A stretch of 64,000 bases of DNA from Cellulomonas alba (GTDB lineage: Bacteria > Actinomycetota > Actinomycetes > Actinomycetales > Cellulomonadaceae): the NCBI RefSeq assembly GCF_030362835.1, contig NZ_JAUCGQ010000004.1, positions 62,001 to 126,000 on the forward strand, written 5' to 3'. Each line of letters begins with the position of its first letter. The stretch's first letter is position 1. A program made the position numbers and the translations under genes. The notes under the pieces are model-generated. The model was given only the letters and a program-made list of their open reading frames with translations. It did no database searches and was not told the origin of the DNA. Positions 28,810 through 57,769 of the stretch are shown here, one piece after another.

Positions 28810-28857
28810 GTTCACCCGCGCGGCACACCGTTCACCCGGCCGCCGGTGACGTTCTCC
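28810..28857 (+). repeat. Three GTTCACC-like heptamers at about 20-base spacing
   Basis: GTTCACC at 28810-28816 and 28830-28836 and GTTCTCC at 28851-28857 are direct repeats 20 and 21 bases apart, that is, on one DNA face, just upstream of the nonulosonate gene. They resemble half-units of PhoP-type boxes, but PhoP units are spaced by 11. Confidence 0.4.
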
Positions 28858-28911
28858 TGACGTGTTCCTCGGCGTCGCCGACGCGTCGAACGCCGTCGTT
28901 ACGTTCGCGGC

Positions 28912-31110
28912 GTGATCGAGCAGACGATCGAGCAGCTGACGCCGGAGGACGCGCCGCGCACCGCGGTCGTCGTCATCCCGGCGCGCGGCGGCTCCGTCGG
29001 CGTGCCGCTCAAGAACCTCGAGCCCGTCGGCGGCCGCTCGCTCGTCGCGCGGGCGGTGACCAGCGCGCTCGCCGCGCGCCGCGTCGCGATGGTCGTCGTC
29101 TCGACCGACCACGAGGGCATCGCGGAGGAGGCAGAGCGGTACGGCGCCTGCGTCGTCCAGCGGCCTGCCGACCTCGCGGGCGCCTCCGCGTCGTCCGAGT
29201 CGGCCGTGCTGCACGCGCTGGACGCGCTCGCGGACACCGAGGCGCTCGCCGCCGAGCCCGACCAGACGGTGCTCCTGCAGTGCACGTCGCCCTTCGTCGA
29301 CCCGGACGACCTCGACGCCGCGATCGCGCGCGTCGCTGACGGGACGTCCGACGTCGCCGTGGCGGTCGCCCCGACGCACGACTTCCAGTGGACGCTGCGC
29401 GACGGCGCGGCGGCGCCGGTCGGGCACCCGCTGCACGAGCGCCCGCGCCGCCAGGACCGTGCGCCGCACTTCCGCGAGACGGGCGCGTTCTACGTCATGC
29501 GCACGGCGGGCCTGCGCGCCGCCGGGACGCGCTTCTTCGGCCGCATCGGCCTGCAGGTCGTCGACGCCGCGACGGCGATCGAGATCGACGAGCCCGCCGA
29601 CCTCGAGCACGCCCGCCGGCTCGCCGCAGCGGGGGACCGCGAGCCGCTCGACGTCGACGCGCTCGTCACGGACTTCGACGGCGTGCACACCGACGACCGC
29701 GCGTACGTCGACGAGCAGGGCCGCGAGTCGGTCCGCGTGCACCGCGGCGACGGGCTCGGCGTGCGGCTCGTGCGCGAGGCCGACGTGCCGGTGCTGGTGC
29801 TCTCGACCGAGCGGAACCCGGTCGTGCGCGCCCGCGCGCACAAGCTCGGCGTCGACGTGCTGCACGGCGTCGACGACAAGGCGGCCGCGCTCGCGGACTG
29901 GCTCGCCGTCCGCCGCCTCGACCCGGCCCGCGTGGCCTACGTCGGCAACGACGTCAACGACCTGCCCGCCATGGCGCGCGTCGGCTGGCCCATCGCGGTC
30001 GCCGACGCCCACCCCCGCGTGCAGGCGGTCGCCCGGCTCGTGCTCGACCGCGAGGGCGGCTCGGGCGCGGTCCGCGAGGTGTGCGACCGCATCGTCGCCG
30101 GCCGGGAGCACGCGCTCGGCGGCGCACCCGTCCTCACCGAGGAGCTCGCCTCCGAGCTCGTCGCCGTACCGACCCTCCAGACCCGTCCCCCCGCCCGCTC
30201 CACGACAGGGAGAACGTCCATGACCATCACCACGAACCAGGCGACCGTCGCGATCGGCGACCAGCTCGTCGGCGAGGGCCAGCCCGTCTATGTGATCGGC
30301 GAGATCGGCATCAATCACAACGGTGACGTCGAGCTGGCTCAGCGCCTGATCGACGTGGCCGCCGAGGCCGGCGCGCAGGCCGTCAAGTTCCAGAAGCGCA
30401 CGCCCGAGATCAGCACGCCACCGGACCAGCGCGACAAGCTGCGTCAGACGCCGTGGGGCGAGATGACGTACCTCGACTACAAGAAGCGCGTCGAGCTCGG
30501 CCGCGCCGAGTACGAGAAGATCGCGGAGCACGCCGCCGACCGCGGGCTGCACTGGTTCGCGTCGCCGTGGGACGTGCCGTCGGTCGCGTTCCTCGAGCAG
30601 CTCGACGTGCCCGTGCACAAGGTCGCGTCGGCGTCGGTCACCGACCTCGAGCTCCTGCGGGCCCTCGCCGAGACCGGCAAGCCCATCATCCTCTCGACCG
30701 GCATGTCGACGATCGAGCAGATCGACCGCGCGGTCGAGACGCTCGGCACGGACCGCCTGATCCTCATGCACGCGACGTCGACGTACCCGCTGCCGCCCGA
30801 GGAGGCGAACCTGCGGTCGATCCAGACGCTGCGCGAGCGCTACGGCGTGCCGGTCGGGTACTCGGGCCACGAGCGCGGCCTGCAGATCTCGCTCGCCGCG
30901 GTCGCGCTGGGGGCCGTGACCGTCGAGCGGCACATCACGCTCGACCGCACGATGTGGGGCTCCGACCACGCGTCGTCGCTCGAGCCGACCGGCCTGCAGC
31001 ATCTGATCCGCGACATCCGCATCCTTCAGGACGCGATGGGCGACGGCGTCAAGCGCGTGTTCCCCGGGGAGCTCGCGCCGATGTCGCGGCTCCGTCGGGT
31101 CGAGGGCTGA
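28912..31110 (+). CDS. Trifunctional nonulosonate enzyme: CMP-sugar synthetase, KdsC-like phosphatase and NeuB-like synthase in one frame
   Basis: 732 residues in one frame. 1-240: NeuA-type cytidylyltransferase (VVVIPARGGSVGVPLKNL, with Val where the common GGSKG has Lys; LLQCTSPFVDPDDL; HFRETGAFYVM). 245-400: HAD phosphatase of KdsC type (LVTDFDGVHTDD, VDDKAAALADWL, YVGNDVNDLPAM). 437-732: NeuB-type PEP-condensing synthase (GEIGINHNGD, AVKFQKR, ILSTGMSTI, GYSGHERG, VERHITLDRTMWGSDHASSLEP) lacking the C-terminal SAF domain. An ATG at 30220 with GGGAGAA upstream lies in frame at the NeuB start, so a separate NeuB may also be made. Together the three parts could turn a hexose or hexosamine 6-phosphate into a CMP-nonulosonate such as CMP-Kdn. 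Confidence 0.85.
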   Translation: MIEQTIEQLTPEDAPRTAVVVIPARGGSVGVPLKNLEPVGGRSLVARAVTSALAARRVAMVVVSTDHEGIAEEAERYGACVVQRPADLAGASASSESAVLHALDALADTEALAAEPDQTVLLQCTSPFVDPDDLDAAIARVADGTSDVAVAVAPTHDFQWTLRDGAAAPVGHPLHERPRRQDRAPHFRETGAFYVMRTAGLRAAGTRFFGRIGLQVVDAATAIEIDEPADLEHARRLAAAGDREPLDVDALVTDFDGVHTDDRAYVDEQGRESVRVHRGDGLGVRLVREADVPVLVLSTERNPVVRARAHKLGVDVLHGVDDKAAALADWLAVRRLDPARVAYVGNDVNDLPAMARVGWPIAVADAHPRVQAVARLVLDREGGSGAVREVCDRIVAGREHALGGAPVLTEELASELVAVPTLQTRPPARSTTGRTSMTITTNQATVAIGDQLVGEGQPVYVIGEIGINHNGDVELAQRLIDVAAEAGAQAVKFQKRTPEISTPPDQRDKLRQTPWGEMTYLDYKKRVELGRAEYEKIAEHAADRGLHWFASPWDVPSVAFLEQLDVPVHKVASASVTDLELLRALAETGKPIILSTGMSTIEQIDRAVETLGTDRLILMHATSTYPLPPEEANLRSIQTLRERYGVPVGYSGHERGLQISLAAVALGAVTVERHITLDRTMWGSDHASSLEPTGLQHLIRDIRILQDAMGDGVKRVFPGELAPMSRLRRVEG
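30206..30222 (+). promoter_or_regulatory. Internal ribosome-binding site and ATG for the NeuB part
   Basis: CAGGGAGAACGTCCATG: a GGGAGA Shine-Dalgarno is placed correctly before ATG 30220, the first codon of the NeuB-like domain, inside the longer open frame. It implies that NeuB was, or still is, translated on its own. Confidence 0.6.
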
Positions 31111-31179: not shown

Positions 31180-32238
31180 ATGACGCTGCTCGACGCGATC
31201 GCCGCGGTGGAGTCGCCGCTGCAGCTGCTGGGTGCGCTCGAGGCCCACGCGGCCGGGCTCGGCGGCGTGACGACGACGGTCCACGTCCGCGCGGACGTGC
31301 CGGCGCTCGACGTCGCTGCGGCCGCGATGCGGGGGGTCGGGCTGCCCGGCGGGCTCGAGCTGACGAGCCTGCCCTCCCCGCGGCCCGGCTCGGCCCACTG
31401 GCTCGTGGGCGACGCGTTCTCCGGGCGGTGGCAGGCGCAGCTCGCCCGGACCGCGCCGCACGGCGACGTCGTCCTGCTCGACGACGGGCTCGCGACCGTC
31501 GCGCTCGCGCGGCTGCTCGTCGCGGGCCGACCGCTGATCCGCCCGAGCCGATCGTCCACGGGTGCGCCCGCCGCGGGTCGGCGCGCGCTCGGCGGTCTCG
31601 TCACGCACCGGCTGCGCGCCCTGGCCGGGGCGGGTCGCCTGCGGCTGTTCACCGCGATGCCGCTCGACCCGGGGCTCCTGGGCGGGCTGCGCGACCTCGG
31701 CGTCGACGTGATGACGCACCGCTTCGAGTGGCTGGCCGGCCGGCCCGTCGTGCCGGCGCCCGCCGAACGGACCGTCGTGGTCGGCTCGGCGCTCGTCGCC
31801 GACGGCTGGGTGCGACCGCAGCCGTACGTCGAGTGGGTGCGCGCGGTGGGCGCGGGCGAGCCGCTGCTGTACCTGCCGCACCGGCGCAGCGACACGCGCA
31901 CGGTCGGCCGGATCGCCTCGATCGACGGCGTGCGCGTCCAGCCGCCGGGACTGCCCGTCGAGATGCTGCTCGGGGGGCTGCGGCCCCCGCAGCGCGTCGT
32001 CTGCCTGCCCTCGACGGCGTACGTGCTGCTCGGCGCGCTGCACGCGAGCACCGGCGTCCGGGTCGACGCCCAGCCCGTGCCGGACGACTGGTGGACGGGA
32101 CGCGCGGCGCCGCTGGTGCGCGAGCACCTGTCGAGCGTGCTCGCGCTGCGGCCGAGCACGCACGCCGGGCCGACCGCGTCCGAGGAGAGCACGGTCGACG
32201 TCGACGGCCGCCTCGACGTCGAGGGGCTCCGCCCGTGA
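31180..32238 (+). CDS. Polysialyltransferase/GT52-like glycosyltransferase
   Basis: 352 residues. ESPLQLLGALEAH at the N-terminus is the entry motif shared by GT52 and polysialyltransferase-like enzymes; LLDDGLATV in the middle, YLPHRRSDTRTV and GLPVEMLLGG, then LPSTAYVLLGAL near the C-terminus complete the pattern. Those enzymes transfer sialic-acid-like sugars from CMP donors. Its position right after the CMP-nonulosonate gene and the GTGA overlap with a second transferase gene support polymer synthesis. The acceptor is unknown. Confidence 0.8.
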   Translation: MTLLDAIAAVESPLQLLGALEAHAAGLGGVTTTVHVRADVPALDVAAAAMRGVGLPGGLELTSLPSPRPGSAHWLVGDAFSGRWQAQLARTAPHGDVVLLDDGLATVALARLLVAGRPLIRPSRSSTGAPAAGRRALGGLVTHRLRALAGAGRLRLFTAMPLDPGLLGGLRDLGVDVMTHRFEWLAGRPVVPAPAERTVVVGSALVADGWVRPQPYVEWVRAVGAGEPLLYLPHRRSDTRTVGRIASIDGVRVQPPGLPVEMLLGGLRPPQRVVCLPSTAYVLLGALHASTGVRVDAQPVPDDWWTGRAAPLVREHLSSVLALRPSTHAGPTASEESTVDVDGRLDVEGLRP

Positions 32239-33398
32239 CGGTGCACGTCCTCGCCGTCGCGGACTCCGACGCGTACCTCAAGTGGGCCGTGCACACGCTG
32301 TCCGCGCTCGGCCCGTCGCTCGGCGGTGAGCCCGTCGAGGCGCGCGCGGTCGTGCTGCGCAGCCCGGTGCTGCCGACGCCGGCGCAGGTCGCCGCCGCGA
32401 CCGCGGGCTCGACCGTCGGCCGCACCGAGGTCGTGTCGGTCTGGCAGCTGCACCGGCTGCTCCGGCGCCGGCCGCCGGACGTGCTGCTCGTGGCCGCGAC
32501 CGGGCCGGTCGCGCAGGTCGTCGGGCGGCTCGCGCAGCGCGCGCGGCGCCGGCCGGCGCTCGTCACCGGCCTGCCGGGCCTCGCGCTGCCGGCGACCGCG
32601 GTCGGCGTGCGCCGGCGCACGTGGTGCGACGCGTTCGTGGTGCACAGCCGGGCGGAGCGCTCCGCCTACGGGGCCGCGTTCGCGGCCGCCGGCACCGCAC
32701 CGGCGGTCGTGCTCTCGCACCTGCCGTTCTTCCGCCCTGCGGGCCGGGATGCGCGCGCCGCGAGCGGCTCGTCCGCACCGGTCGTGTTCGCCGCGCAGCC
32801 GTCGGTCCCCGCGGCGCGCCACGACCGCGTGCGCCTGCTCGCGGGCCTCGCGGGCGTCGCGGCGGCCGGGCACGACGTCGTCGTCAAGCTGCGCGCCACG
32901 ACGGGGGAGCGGCAGACGCACCACGAGCCGCACCCGTACGCGGACCTTTGGGAGCAGGAGCACGCGCGCCTCGGACACCCGCGCGAGCTGCTGCGGTTCG
33001 CCACGGGTGCGATGTCCGACTGGCTGCGGCCCGGCGCGACGCTCGTGACCGTGAGCTCGACGGCCGCGCTCGAGGCGATCGCCGCCGGGGTGCCGACCGC
33101 GCTCGTCGCGGACCTCGGCGTCGCCGACGCGCTGCTCAACCCGCCGTTCGCGGGTTCGGGGCTGATGACGCACCTCGCCGACCTCCCCGCGGCGCTCGAG
33201 CGCGGGCTCCCGGCGCCGGACCCGTCCTGGGCCGACGAGCACGGCTTCCACCCCGAGCCGTCCGAGCTCCCGGCGGCGCTCGCGCGGCTCGTCGCGCGCT
33301 CGCGGGCGAGCGTGCTGCCCGCCCAGCGGGTCCCGGTGCCGCGCCGGTCGGTGCTGCGCCTCGTGGTGCCGACGACCCTTGCCGCCCGCGCGCGCTGA
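32235..33398 (+). CDS. Putative glycosyltransferase (DUF6716 type)
   Basis: 387 residues of a GT-B-like two-domain protein: Rossmann first half ([55 protein letters not shown]) and a second half with [34 protein letters not shown] and [21 protein letters not shown]. The last block is the donor-binding type found in CDP/CMP-sugar polymerases. GTG start overlaps the upstream transferase stop (GTGA 32235-32238). It probably works on the same cell-surface polymer. Confidence 0.75.
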
Positions 33399-55795: not shown

Positions 55796-55817
55796 GTTCA
55801 CCCGGCGTTCATCGGCG
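55796..55817 (+). promoter_or_regulatory. Two GTTCAYC units at 11-base spacing (PHO-box-like)
   Basis: GTTCACC (55796-55802) and GTTCATC (55807-55813) are direct repeats exactly 11 bases apart, the spacing and near-consensus of actinobacterial PhoP box units. They lie just after the upstream stop codon and about 110 bases before the predicted start of transcription of the VanY-like gene. Confidence 0.45.
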
Positions 55818-55908: not shown

Positions 55909-55996
55909 TTCGTGACCGCTGCTCCGGGCGGCCCCTCCACATCGGGGTCCTTGCCGTGCGCCGCGGGTGAACGACGACGTAGCGCAAGGAGGTGCA

Positions 55997-57769
55997 GTGG
56001 CGGACGAGCAGGTCCCTTCGGGCTCCTTCCCGACGCGGCGCGCCCTCCGAGAGGCGGAGCGCCGCGCCGCTGCTGCAGCGGCCGCGCAGCACGCCGAGCC
56101 GGCCGTCGTCGGTGCGACCGTCGCCGACGGGCCGCTGGGTCGCAGCGCCTCGGCCGAGGGCGGCCACGGGCACGGCGGCTCCGGGTCGTCCGTCGCGACA
56201 GCCGTCGCCGCGCCGCCCGCCACGCGCCGGGCCGCACGCACCGCCGGGCAGGCGCCCTTCGCGCCGGCTTCTGCGCCGTCGTCCTCGACGTCCGCTCCCG
56301 CGGCCGAGACCCGCCGGTCGCGCGCCGCCTCGACCCCGGCGCCCGCCGCGTGGTCCGCGGCGCAGCCCGCACCTCGCACGGTCGCGACGCCGCCGACCAG
56401 CACCGCCACGCCGGTTCGCCCGACGTGGGCGTCTGCGCCGTCCGCCGCCCCGGCCGCGTCGTCGCTGCCGGGCGCCGCCTCGGACGCACGGAGCGTCGCG
56501 GTGGCCCCGGCCCGGCCGGCGCCGAGCATGGGCGAGACGGCGTCCGGGCCCGCAGCAAGCGCTGCCGAGAAGGCGGTCCTGCTGGCGCCGAGCGCCGACG
56601 AGACGGCGATGCTCCCCGCCGTGCGCGCCGAGGCCGAGCCGGCCGACGCGCGCGTCGCGCCCGCCTTCGCCGCGACGTCCGCCAGCCCGTTCGCCGAGCT
56701 GCGCGAGGCTGCGGCAGCGGCCCGCGACGCGAAGCGTCAGCAGACCGTCGCACCCGTCGCCGCGCCGTTCGCCCCGATCCACGAGCCTGCCGCCCCGGTC
56801 CACGAGCTCACCGCTCGCGCCGCGGAGCAGACTCCCGCCGCCGCGCAGCGCCCCACCTCGCACGGTGTCGCCGCGCACCACGCCACCGCGCACGACACCG
56901 CCGCGCACGGTACGACCGCGCACGACGCCGTGCCGCACCCCACGCCGGCCGCGCAGCCCCAGCCGACCCGCGCCTCCGGCGCGTCCTCCTCGACCCGCCG
57001 CGCCGCCACCGCCCCGGCCGGGCGCACGTCGAGCGGCCACCGTCGGCCCAGCCGCGCGGTCGCACGCCTCGGCGTGCTCGGGTCGCTCGCAGCGGTGACG
57101 GTCGTCATCCCCGTCGCGCAGGGCCTCGTGCACAGCGCGGCCGCCGACGAGGGTCCGGTCACGGCGTCGAGCGACTCGCACCTGCCGAGCACGGTCATGG
57201 CGCTGACCGGCAGCGTGCTGGGAGCGGAACCACCGGCGTCGCTCATCGTCCCGGCGGGCGCCGTGGCGGTGCGCGACACCGAGGTGAGCCGCGACCTGAC
57301 GCGCTCGCCGCTCGAGCACTGCTCGGGCCTGGTTCCGGACGAGAAGACGTCGACCAACGGCCACGTCCCCGCGCGCGACCTGTGCACGCTGTGGGACGGC
57401 CACACGCAGATCCGCGCGGATGCCGCGGTCGCGCTCGCCCAGCTCAACAGCGCGTACGCCGCGCGGTTCCACCGGAACCTCTGCCTGTCCTCGGGCTACC
57501 GCAGCCTCGCCATGCAGTACGTCGTCAAGGCGGAGCGCGGCGGCCTCGCCGCCACCCCGGGCACGAGCAACCACGGCTGGGGCCTCGCGATCGACCTCTG
57601 CAGCCAGGAGACCGGCGGCGAGGCCTGGACCTGGATCAACGAGAACGCTCCCGTCTACGGCTGGAAGCACCCGGCGTGGGCGCTCCCGGGCGGCGTCGGA
57701 CCGCACGAGCCGTGGCACTGGGAGTTCGCGTCGGGCGTCGAGGCCGACGGCTCGTTCTCGGGCTACTGA
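55997..57769 (+). CDS. Membrane-anchored VanY/DD-carboxypeptidase-like protein with long disordered N-terminus
   Basis: 590 residues. About 350 residues of Ala/Pro-rich low-complexity sequence (including an HGVAAHHATAHDTAAHG-like repeat) precede one helix (about 357-374, VARLGVLGSLAAVTVVIPVA) and then the extracellular peptidase domain. VanY zinc motifs are present: SSGYRSLAMQY, TSNHGWGLAIDLCS (SxHxxGxAxD) and HEPWHWEFA. The enzyme would trim D-Ala from peptidoglycan stems. GTG at 55997 follows a perfect AAGGAGGTG; GTG 55967 upstream lacks one. Controlled by the palindromes ahead. Confidence 0.9.
   Translation: MADEQVPSGSFPTRRALREAERRAAAAAAAQHAEPAVVGATVADGPLGRSASAEGGHGHGGSGSSVATAVAAPPATRRAARTAGQAPFAPASAPSSSTSAPAAETRRSRAASTPAPAAWSAAQPAPRTVATPPTSTATPVRPTWASAPSAAPAASSLPGAASDARSVAVAPARPAPSMGETASGPAASAAEKAVLLAPSADETAMLPAVRAEAEPADARVAPAFAATSASPFAELREAAAAARDAKRQQTVAPVAAPFAPIHEPAAPVHELTARAAEQTPAAAQRPTSHGVAAHHATAHDTAAHGTTAHDAVPHPTPAAQPQPTRASGASSSTRRAATAPAGRTSSGHRRPSRAVARLGVLGSLAAVTVVIPVAQGLVHSAAADEGPVTASSDSHLPSTVMALTGSVLGAEPPASLIVPAGAVAVRDTEVSRDLTRSPLEHCSGLVPDEKTSTNGHVPARDLCTLWDGHTQIRADAAVALAQLNSAYAARFHRNLCLSSGYRSLAMQYVVKAERGGLAATPGTSNHGWGLAIDLCSQETGGEAWTWINENAPVYGWKHPAWALPGGVGPHEPWHWEFASGVEADGSFSGY

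Follow-up and report, generated by a model that had tools for sequence, protein, structure and literature searches.

The window analysed here is a stretch of 64,000 nucleotides from Cellulomonas alba, and on its forward strand positions 28912-31110 are open throughout, with 732 codons and no internal stop. Pfam and NCBIfam models place a synthetase at residues 19-235, a phosphatase at 248-399 and NeuB at 479-714 of the encoded protein, confirming the claim of a preliminary description of this DNA that one frame joins three nonulosonate enzymes. The features of the locus are listed below.

28810..28836, + strand: two GTTCACC repeats, PHO-box-like, starting at 28810 and 28830 (20 nt apart)
28900..28905, + strand: TACGTT, a -10-like element 6 nt before the start codon, suggesting a leaderless mRNA
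28912..31110, + strand: single CDS of 732 aa with a GTG start and the stop TGA at 31108-31110
28966..29616, + strand: CMP-nonulosonate synthetase domain, residues 19-235 (cytidylyltransferase by Pfam/NCBIfam)
29653..30108, + strand: KdsC-type HAD phosphatase domain, residues 248-399 (Pfam/NCBIfam and structure matches)
30109..30219, + strand: linker, residues 400-436 (pLDDT below 50 at 404-441; GC by codon position)
30209..30212, + strand: internal Shine-Dalgarno (SD) sequence GGAG, 7 nt before the ATG
30220..30222, + strand: internal ATG, the putative start of a free NeuB, at the same place as the ATG of split NeuB genes
30220..31107, + strand: NeuB-type synthase without SAF domain, residues 437-732 (Pfam/NCBIfam, structure, residue alignment)
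31180..32238, + strand: co-oriented gene for a 352-aa protein without a Pfam or NCBIfam family; a homologue lies near the locus in 67 of the best 80 named loci
32235..33398, + strand: DUF6716 putative glycosyltransferase gene, overlapping the 352-aa gene by 4 nt (GTGA)

The host genome (7 contigs, 99.99% complete) holds one full match to the protein; the other match is confined to a 69-residue HAD stretch. The synthetase domain scored above the cut-off of CTP_transf_3 (64.8 bits; cut-off 22.6) and the catalytic barrel of NeuB matched PF03102 with 275.7 bits. More specific models stayed below their cut-offs: TIGR03569 (NeuB/NnaB equivalog; 266.8 of 399.65 bits, curated cut-off), TIGR01670 (KdsC phosphatase subfamily; 96.7 of 106.95 bits) and NF058599 (Kdn-9-P phosphatase; 96.4 and 100.2 of 180 bits). 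In an alignment of 51 fused proteins the HAD residues D254, D256, S298, K323, D347 and D350 are invariant, and the motifs that we take to define KdsC-type HAD enzymes (DxD, S, K, GNDxND) are present in all 51. The NeuB residues E464, K492, K570, H653, E672 and H674 are likewise kept in 51/51; aligned by eye, they are equivalent to Glu25, Lys53, Lys129, His215, Glu234 and His236, presumably the catalytic and metal residues of NmNeuB. The preliminary description had said that NeuB lacks the SAF domain; the protein indeed terminates at roughly the point where NeuB would continue into it, and a C-terminal SAF domain is absent from all 179 distinct sequences of our survey, in which 270-299 aa separate the VYVI motif from the stop.

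Comparison with solved structures placed each part next to a known enzyme. The nearest solved CMP synthetase is PpNeuA (9t4z, the Prymnesium CMP-Kdn synthetase), narrowly ahead of Neisseria 1eyr, and the NeuB part is nearest to Leptospira 6ncs by both sequence and fold; 6ncs is similarly short (290 aa), but its chain has no fusion partner. The phosphatase is matched by the 3e81 series, presumably the Bacteroides phosphatase. Murine 1qwj matches the first domain of the window protein and 3ewi, which we take to be the C-domain of mouse CMAS, matches the second. Animal CMAS thus resembles the window protein in joining a synthetase to a further KdsC-like C-terminal domain in one chain, but it has no NeuB, and the window phosphatase retains the HAD catalytic residues. 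The abstract of PMC8636478 describes this two-domain layout and states that what the vertebrate C-domain does is unknown. A fused NeuB occurs in a Kdn/Neu5Ac producer, Serratia marcescens KL1, where, according to PMC9000132, the partner is instead an isomerase/epimerase domain and the locus is a capsule locus. Our literature search on the fusion and the locus, chiefly in open papers, found no description of either; the enzymes are known, and their arrangement is new and evolutionarily labile.

To place the fusion among relatives we searched four overlapping genome samples: genus (81 genomes, 19 with a match at E<=1e-30), family (221 genomes, 53 matching), order (396 genomes, 108 matching at E<=1e-60) and class (394 genomes, 80 matching). 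A scan of named genomes, of which the best 80 loci were taken, favours fused loci and was left out of the frequencies, which cover the family, genus and class samples. Samples and scan together gave at least 219 loci with an adjacent phosphatase-NeuB pair, at least 182 of them distinct; 14 loci without an adjacent HAD-NeuB pair were left out and 3 rows were dropped as too short for the tree. The 179 distinct sequences that remained divide into 87 fused and 92 split, L199 (genome G882, 81% complete) being scored as split with possible indel errors.

The locus was fused in 23 and split in 30 of the 53 family genomes that carry it. In the genus sample 5 were fused, 8 split and 6 unclassifiable, so that the frequency rests on 13 of 19 genomes; in the class sample 16 were fused, 33 split and 31 unclassified (49 of 80 usable). 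The preliminary description had named homologues that are always split, and a frameshift or missing stop produced by sequencing, as findings that would speak against it. Neither agrees with these counts. A sequencing or assembly error that removed the stop or shifted the frame would be plausible for a single genome only, and the recurrence of the open junction in these 23 genomes of the family, as well as in named genomes from different strains, makes it barely credible.

Fusion is also found outside the group of the window. A second fused lineage comprises 63 sequences, 58 from Streptosporangiaceae and five from a family coded f35. In the class sample, 14 of the 18 classified genomes of this coded family are fused and 4 split, with 1 more left unclassified, and two of the four split ones match named Nocardiopsidaceae. 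Unlike the window, all classified genomes of the class sample coded f37/g126, presumed Streptomyces, are split. Isoptericola/Krasilnikoviella-type sequences are fused in 13/13 cases despite several linker lengths. The gene order is not universal: the NeuB match is distant from the synthetase match in G656, and it lies 5' of the synthetase match, with about 1.2 kb between them, in G254, G186 and G144.

We then considered the start of the NeuB part, which the preliminary description had said retains its own Shine-Dalgarno sequence and ATG. Both are present (GGAG at 30209-30212, ATG at 30220), and both are shared. The 24 fused sequences outside the Streptosporangiaceae group (from Cellulomonas, Cellulosimicrobium, Isoptericola, Krasilnikoviella, Arthrobacter castelli and further members of the family of the window) have each retained a core SD, placed 5-10 nt ahead of an in-frame start codon that is ATG in 23 and GTG in one (Krasilnikoviella). 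These sequences are related to one another and are not 24 independent cases. As a null we took equal-length in-frame windows from elsewhere in these genes, within the phosphatase and NeuB regions, and found SD plus ATG in 132 of 7316 (1.8%) and SD plus ATG or GTG in 1717 of 7316 (23%), showing that retention of SD and start is above chance. The SD was counted by a core rule; a looser definition admitted chance matches such as GATC. In the short-linker Isoptericola-type genes the SD is embedded in the last phosphatase codons (HRKDPVM). The RNA around the internal start of the window was not more structured than shuffled sequences and was slightly less folded (z +1.31). Among the 63 fused Streptosporangiaceae-group sequences, none has an SD-preceded ATG before NeuB and 3 have an ATG of any kind; GTG with SD occurs in 11 of the 63, which is less than the 26% of null windows that have SD with ATG or GTG. 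With no ATG and SD left, the fusion in that group looks permanent. From the conservation in the other 24 we infer that a free NeuB of about 32 kDa is probably also made in the window, and of the possibilities raised in the preliminary description a dual product is the most economical reading.

The DNA between phosphatase and NeuB had been described as former non-coding sequence. Its last stretch does resemble the NeuB leader of G071, a split relative, but the linker is now codon-like, with GC at the three codon positions of 24/29, 17/29 and 26/29. The other two frames of the 40-codon linker of the window are likewise free of stops, as are all frames of most linkers, so that an open linker alone is weak evidence, and we rejected the absence of stops as proof of coding. 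What places the open junction above chance is its recurrence in other genomes together with the codon-like GC3 of the pooled fused linkers (GC1 244/334, GC2 226/334, GC3 298/334; p = 5e-12 for GC3 against the other positions, pooling that ignores shared ancestry); split intergenic DNA gave 0.713/0.672/0.587 by the same positions. The long Isoptericola/Krasilnikoviella linkers lack a codon-like pattern (51, 48 and 43 of 57). An AlphaFold2 model built from the 51 aligned of the 87 fused sequences had a mean pLDDT of 79.2 and a pTM of 0.47, with folded domains and a linker predicted to be disordered. Short low-confidence stretches also fall within the domains (257-261, 275-278, 624-627, 678-690 and 710-732), and the relative placement of the domains is not to be read from this model.

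The history of the junction was traced on two trees. On a tree of 68 rows and 644 columns, hand-chosen from the 179 and including 11 of the 63 fused Streptosporangiaceae-group rows, the fused/split label needs seven changes, all forced by starred branches. A tree of 152 rows, which kept 35 of 62 F- rows after thinning (the F+/F- division following the looser SD rule), needs eight, six of them so forced; gain and loss of fusion are not distinguishable on either tree. Streptosporangiaceae, the Cellulomonas-Isoptericola group and A. castelli stand at separate places. The nearest neighbour of the window, G071, is split (branch support 93/66). G062, placed among fused species, is also split, apparently again: 71 nt separate its phosphatase from the ATG, against 72 nt in two sisters, and the one-base difference creates a stop overlapping the ATG (ATGA) while SD and ATG stay untouched. 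A recent fusion through loss of a stop codon, as had been suggested, is partly supported: the split state of G071 agrees with it, but fused loci are spread over Cellulomonas, Cellulosimicrobium and Isoptericola, with changes in both directions. Among pairs compared for linker length, the split-split pairs comprised 10 of equal length, 18 differing by multiples of three and 14 that did not; of the seven fused-split pairs, one differed in frame and six out of frame. We rejected this test as proof of selection, fused-fused pairs being in frame by definition. The fused/split junction flips easily in Cellulomonas, and selection for the fusion there is not shown.

Such repeated switching speaks for near-neutrality in Cellulomonas, and the stop may simply have been lost there, the free NeuB doing the work and the attached copy being tolerated baggage without a role. 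The seven changes on the smaller tree, the split G071, the one-base-shorter linker of G062 and linkers mostly without stops in any frame all fit this idea. We nevertheless regard it as unlikely: the uniformly fused Isoptericola-type clade, with its several linker lengths, and the 63 fusions without ATG and SD, in which the fused chain can seemingly be the sole source of NeuB, argue for a working fused chain, and the pooled linkers are codon-like at GC3. The opposite extreme, a strictly trifunctional enzyme whose internal SD and ATG are an unused relic, draws on the same 63 sequences, in which a free NeuB appears not to be needed. It accounts poorly for the SD and start retained in all 24 members of the other group while their linkers vary, and for an internal start region without strong structure, and we think it distinctly improbable. 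A trifunctional chain accompanied by free NeuB remains our preferred reading; in Cellulomonas its junction would be labile since NeuB could be made with or without a stop codon ahead of it.

To assess the likely substrate, we examined the neighbouring genes and the rest of the genome for epimerases. None of the neighbours is an epimerase, in agreement with the earlier remark that no NeuC-type gene is adjacent, and a search of the 99.99% complete genome for three families, NeuC, NanE and N-acylglucosamine epimerase (AGE), recognised none. The protein matching Epimerase_2 is WecB, with 400.8 bits against a cut-off of 210, and the NeuC model gave only 76.5 of 236. A marginal hit to NanE came from TrpC, and the member of the AGE family was nearest to D-mannose isomerase, below the cut-off for that enzyme. 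None of the three families searched thus supplies ManNAc or ManNAc-6-P. The genome encodes a phosphomannose isomerase, and mannose 6-phosphate is predicted to be available in the host. Judged from these genes, the locus most likely serves to make CMP-Kdn out of mannose 6-phosphate, and the route put forward in the preliminary description stands as the best guess.

A pathway that instead yields Neu5Ac or another nonulosonate from ManNAc or ManNAc-6-P would find some support in WecB, which can supply UDP-ManNAc and so could feed a ManNAc route of another kind, and in NeuB_NnaB as the best-scoring model for the NeuB domain. We consider it rather improbable. Besides the missing epimerases, the phosphatase implies a 9-phosphate, and the SAF domain is absent together with its Arg314, presumably a functional residue; mutant structures are 4ipi and 4ipj. 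The wall polymer of Streptomyces coelicolor contains Kdn, according to PMC11481543 and PMC7831098. In Bacteroides and Prymnesium, mannose 6-phosphate and PEP give Kdn-9-P, which a phosphatase and a synthetase convert to CMP-Kdn (PMC6200933). The window shares with this pathway the structural matches of synthetase and phosphatase described above, but there the enzymes are separate proteins, and the window phosphatase falls below the NF058599 cut-off. For residues that tell Kdn from Neu5Ac phosphatases, our search found no open paper.

The genes downstream suggest a destination for the sugar. A DUF6716 homologue lies near the locus in 71 of the best 80 named loci, and homologues of the 352-aa protein, of DUF6716 or of both lie in the flanks of 75 of these 80, mostly on the opposite strand; the 352-aa protein is possibly a new transferase of the polymer. 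In the Cellulomonas relatives L065, L123 and L136 the 352-aa homologue follows the locus, and a tblastn match to DUF6716 is absent from the stretch searched. The S. coelicolor genes SCO4873-SCO4882 form a PhoP-controlled teichulosonic-acid cluster, as PMC13011467 has it, and by that description they resemble the window in combining sialic-acid-type synthesis and glycosyltransferase genes with phosphate regulation. For Planobispora rosea, PMC8269224 reports corresponding genes, among them one for a 'sialic acid synthase'; their expression is PhoP-like, and they are taken there as teichuronic acid genes. Supply of CMP-Kdn for a phosphate-free wall polymer would be the best-supported role of the locus.

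At the upstream end of the frame, the sequence TTACGTTCGCGGC followed by ATG or GTG is common to six of seven Cellulomonas-type loci compared, and one base is different in the seventh (G071); the start codon is GTG in the window and ATG in the others that share it. A comparable -10-like element stands 6-7 nt ahead of the ATG in Cellulosimicrobium and Isoptericola. The conserved sequence and the -10-like element just before the start codon indicate that the start at 28912 is well placed, and the mRNA of this first start is likely leaderless. The GTTCACC-type repeats are spaced by 11 nt in several relatives, against 20 nt in the window. Scored with a PHO-box consensus that we presume to be the accepted one, 46 of 145 upstream regions score above the 95% quantile of the background and 33 of 145 above the 99% quantile, with the highest scores in Cellulomonas and Cellulosimicrobium relatives; the window scores a moderate 13.2, between the two quantiles (12.8 and 13.5). 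A stricter test for close GTTCACC-type pairs picks out 2 of 122 upstream regions, the window included (background 1/1440).

We propose, and consider fairly probable as a whole, that this one frame gives both a trifunctional chain and a free NeuB, converts mannose 6-phosphate to CMP-Kdn for a wall polymer and has a labile junction. Ribosomes starting at the GTG at 28912 meet no stop before 31108 and would make a chain of about 77 kDa ending in NeuB; with no earlier stop, synthetase and phosphatase can be made only within this fusion, barring later cleavage. Ribosomes entering at the SD and ATG at 30209-30222 would add the free NeuB of about 32 kDa. NeuB would form Kdn-9-P by condensing mannose 6-phosphate with PEP, the phosphatase would strip the phosphate and the synthetase would then yield CMP-Kdn, from which the neighbouring genes would probably assemble a phosphate-free polymer (teichulosonic acid) under phosphate scarcity. 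A further idea, which we hold tentatively and think somewhat doubtful, is that chain and free NeuB co-assemble through NeuB oligomerisation, so that Kdn-9-P is handed from synthase to phosphatase and the product on to synthetase within one particle; the ratio of the two forms would be set by the leaderless first start and by the internal one with its SD. If such mixed assemblies exist, the steps from split to fused with an internal start to fused without one would let the course of an enzyme fusion be seen, with a way back for as long as the internal start persists.

Related bacteria offer a natural series of this gene pair (split; fused and keeping the internal start; apparently split once more; fused without such a start), and in these harmless soil bacteria simple changes of stop and start codons could show what enzyme fusion is worth. 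A complete enzyme from mannose 6-phosphate to CMP-Kdn in one chain, as predicted here, would be a useful biocatalyst, and Kdn polymers are predicted in the walls of Cellulomonas, Isoptericola and Streptosporangiaceae.

The exact 11-nt double repeat occurs at two sites in the host genome. One, PHO-box-like (L252:1501-1518), lies upstream of a PBP_like_2, pstS-like gene that itself follows a response-regulator gene. The other, GTTCACCCGGC GTTCATCGGCG at 55796-55817 of the window, stands ahead of an ORF for a VanY-type D,D-carboxypeptidase (55967-57769), a cell-wall gene that is possibly also under PhoP.
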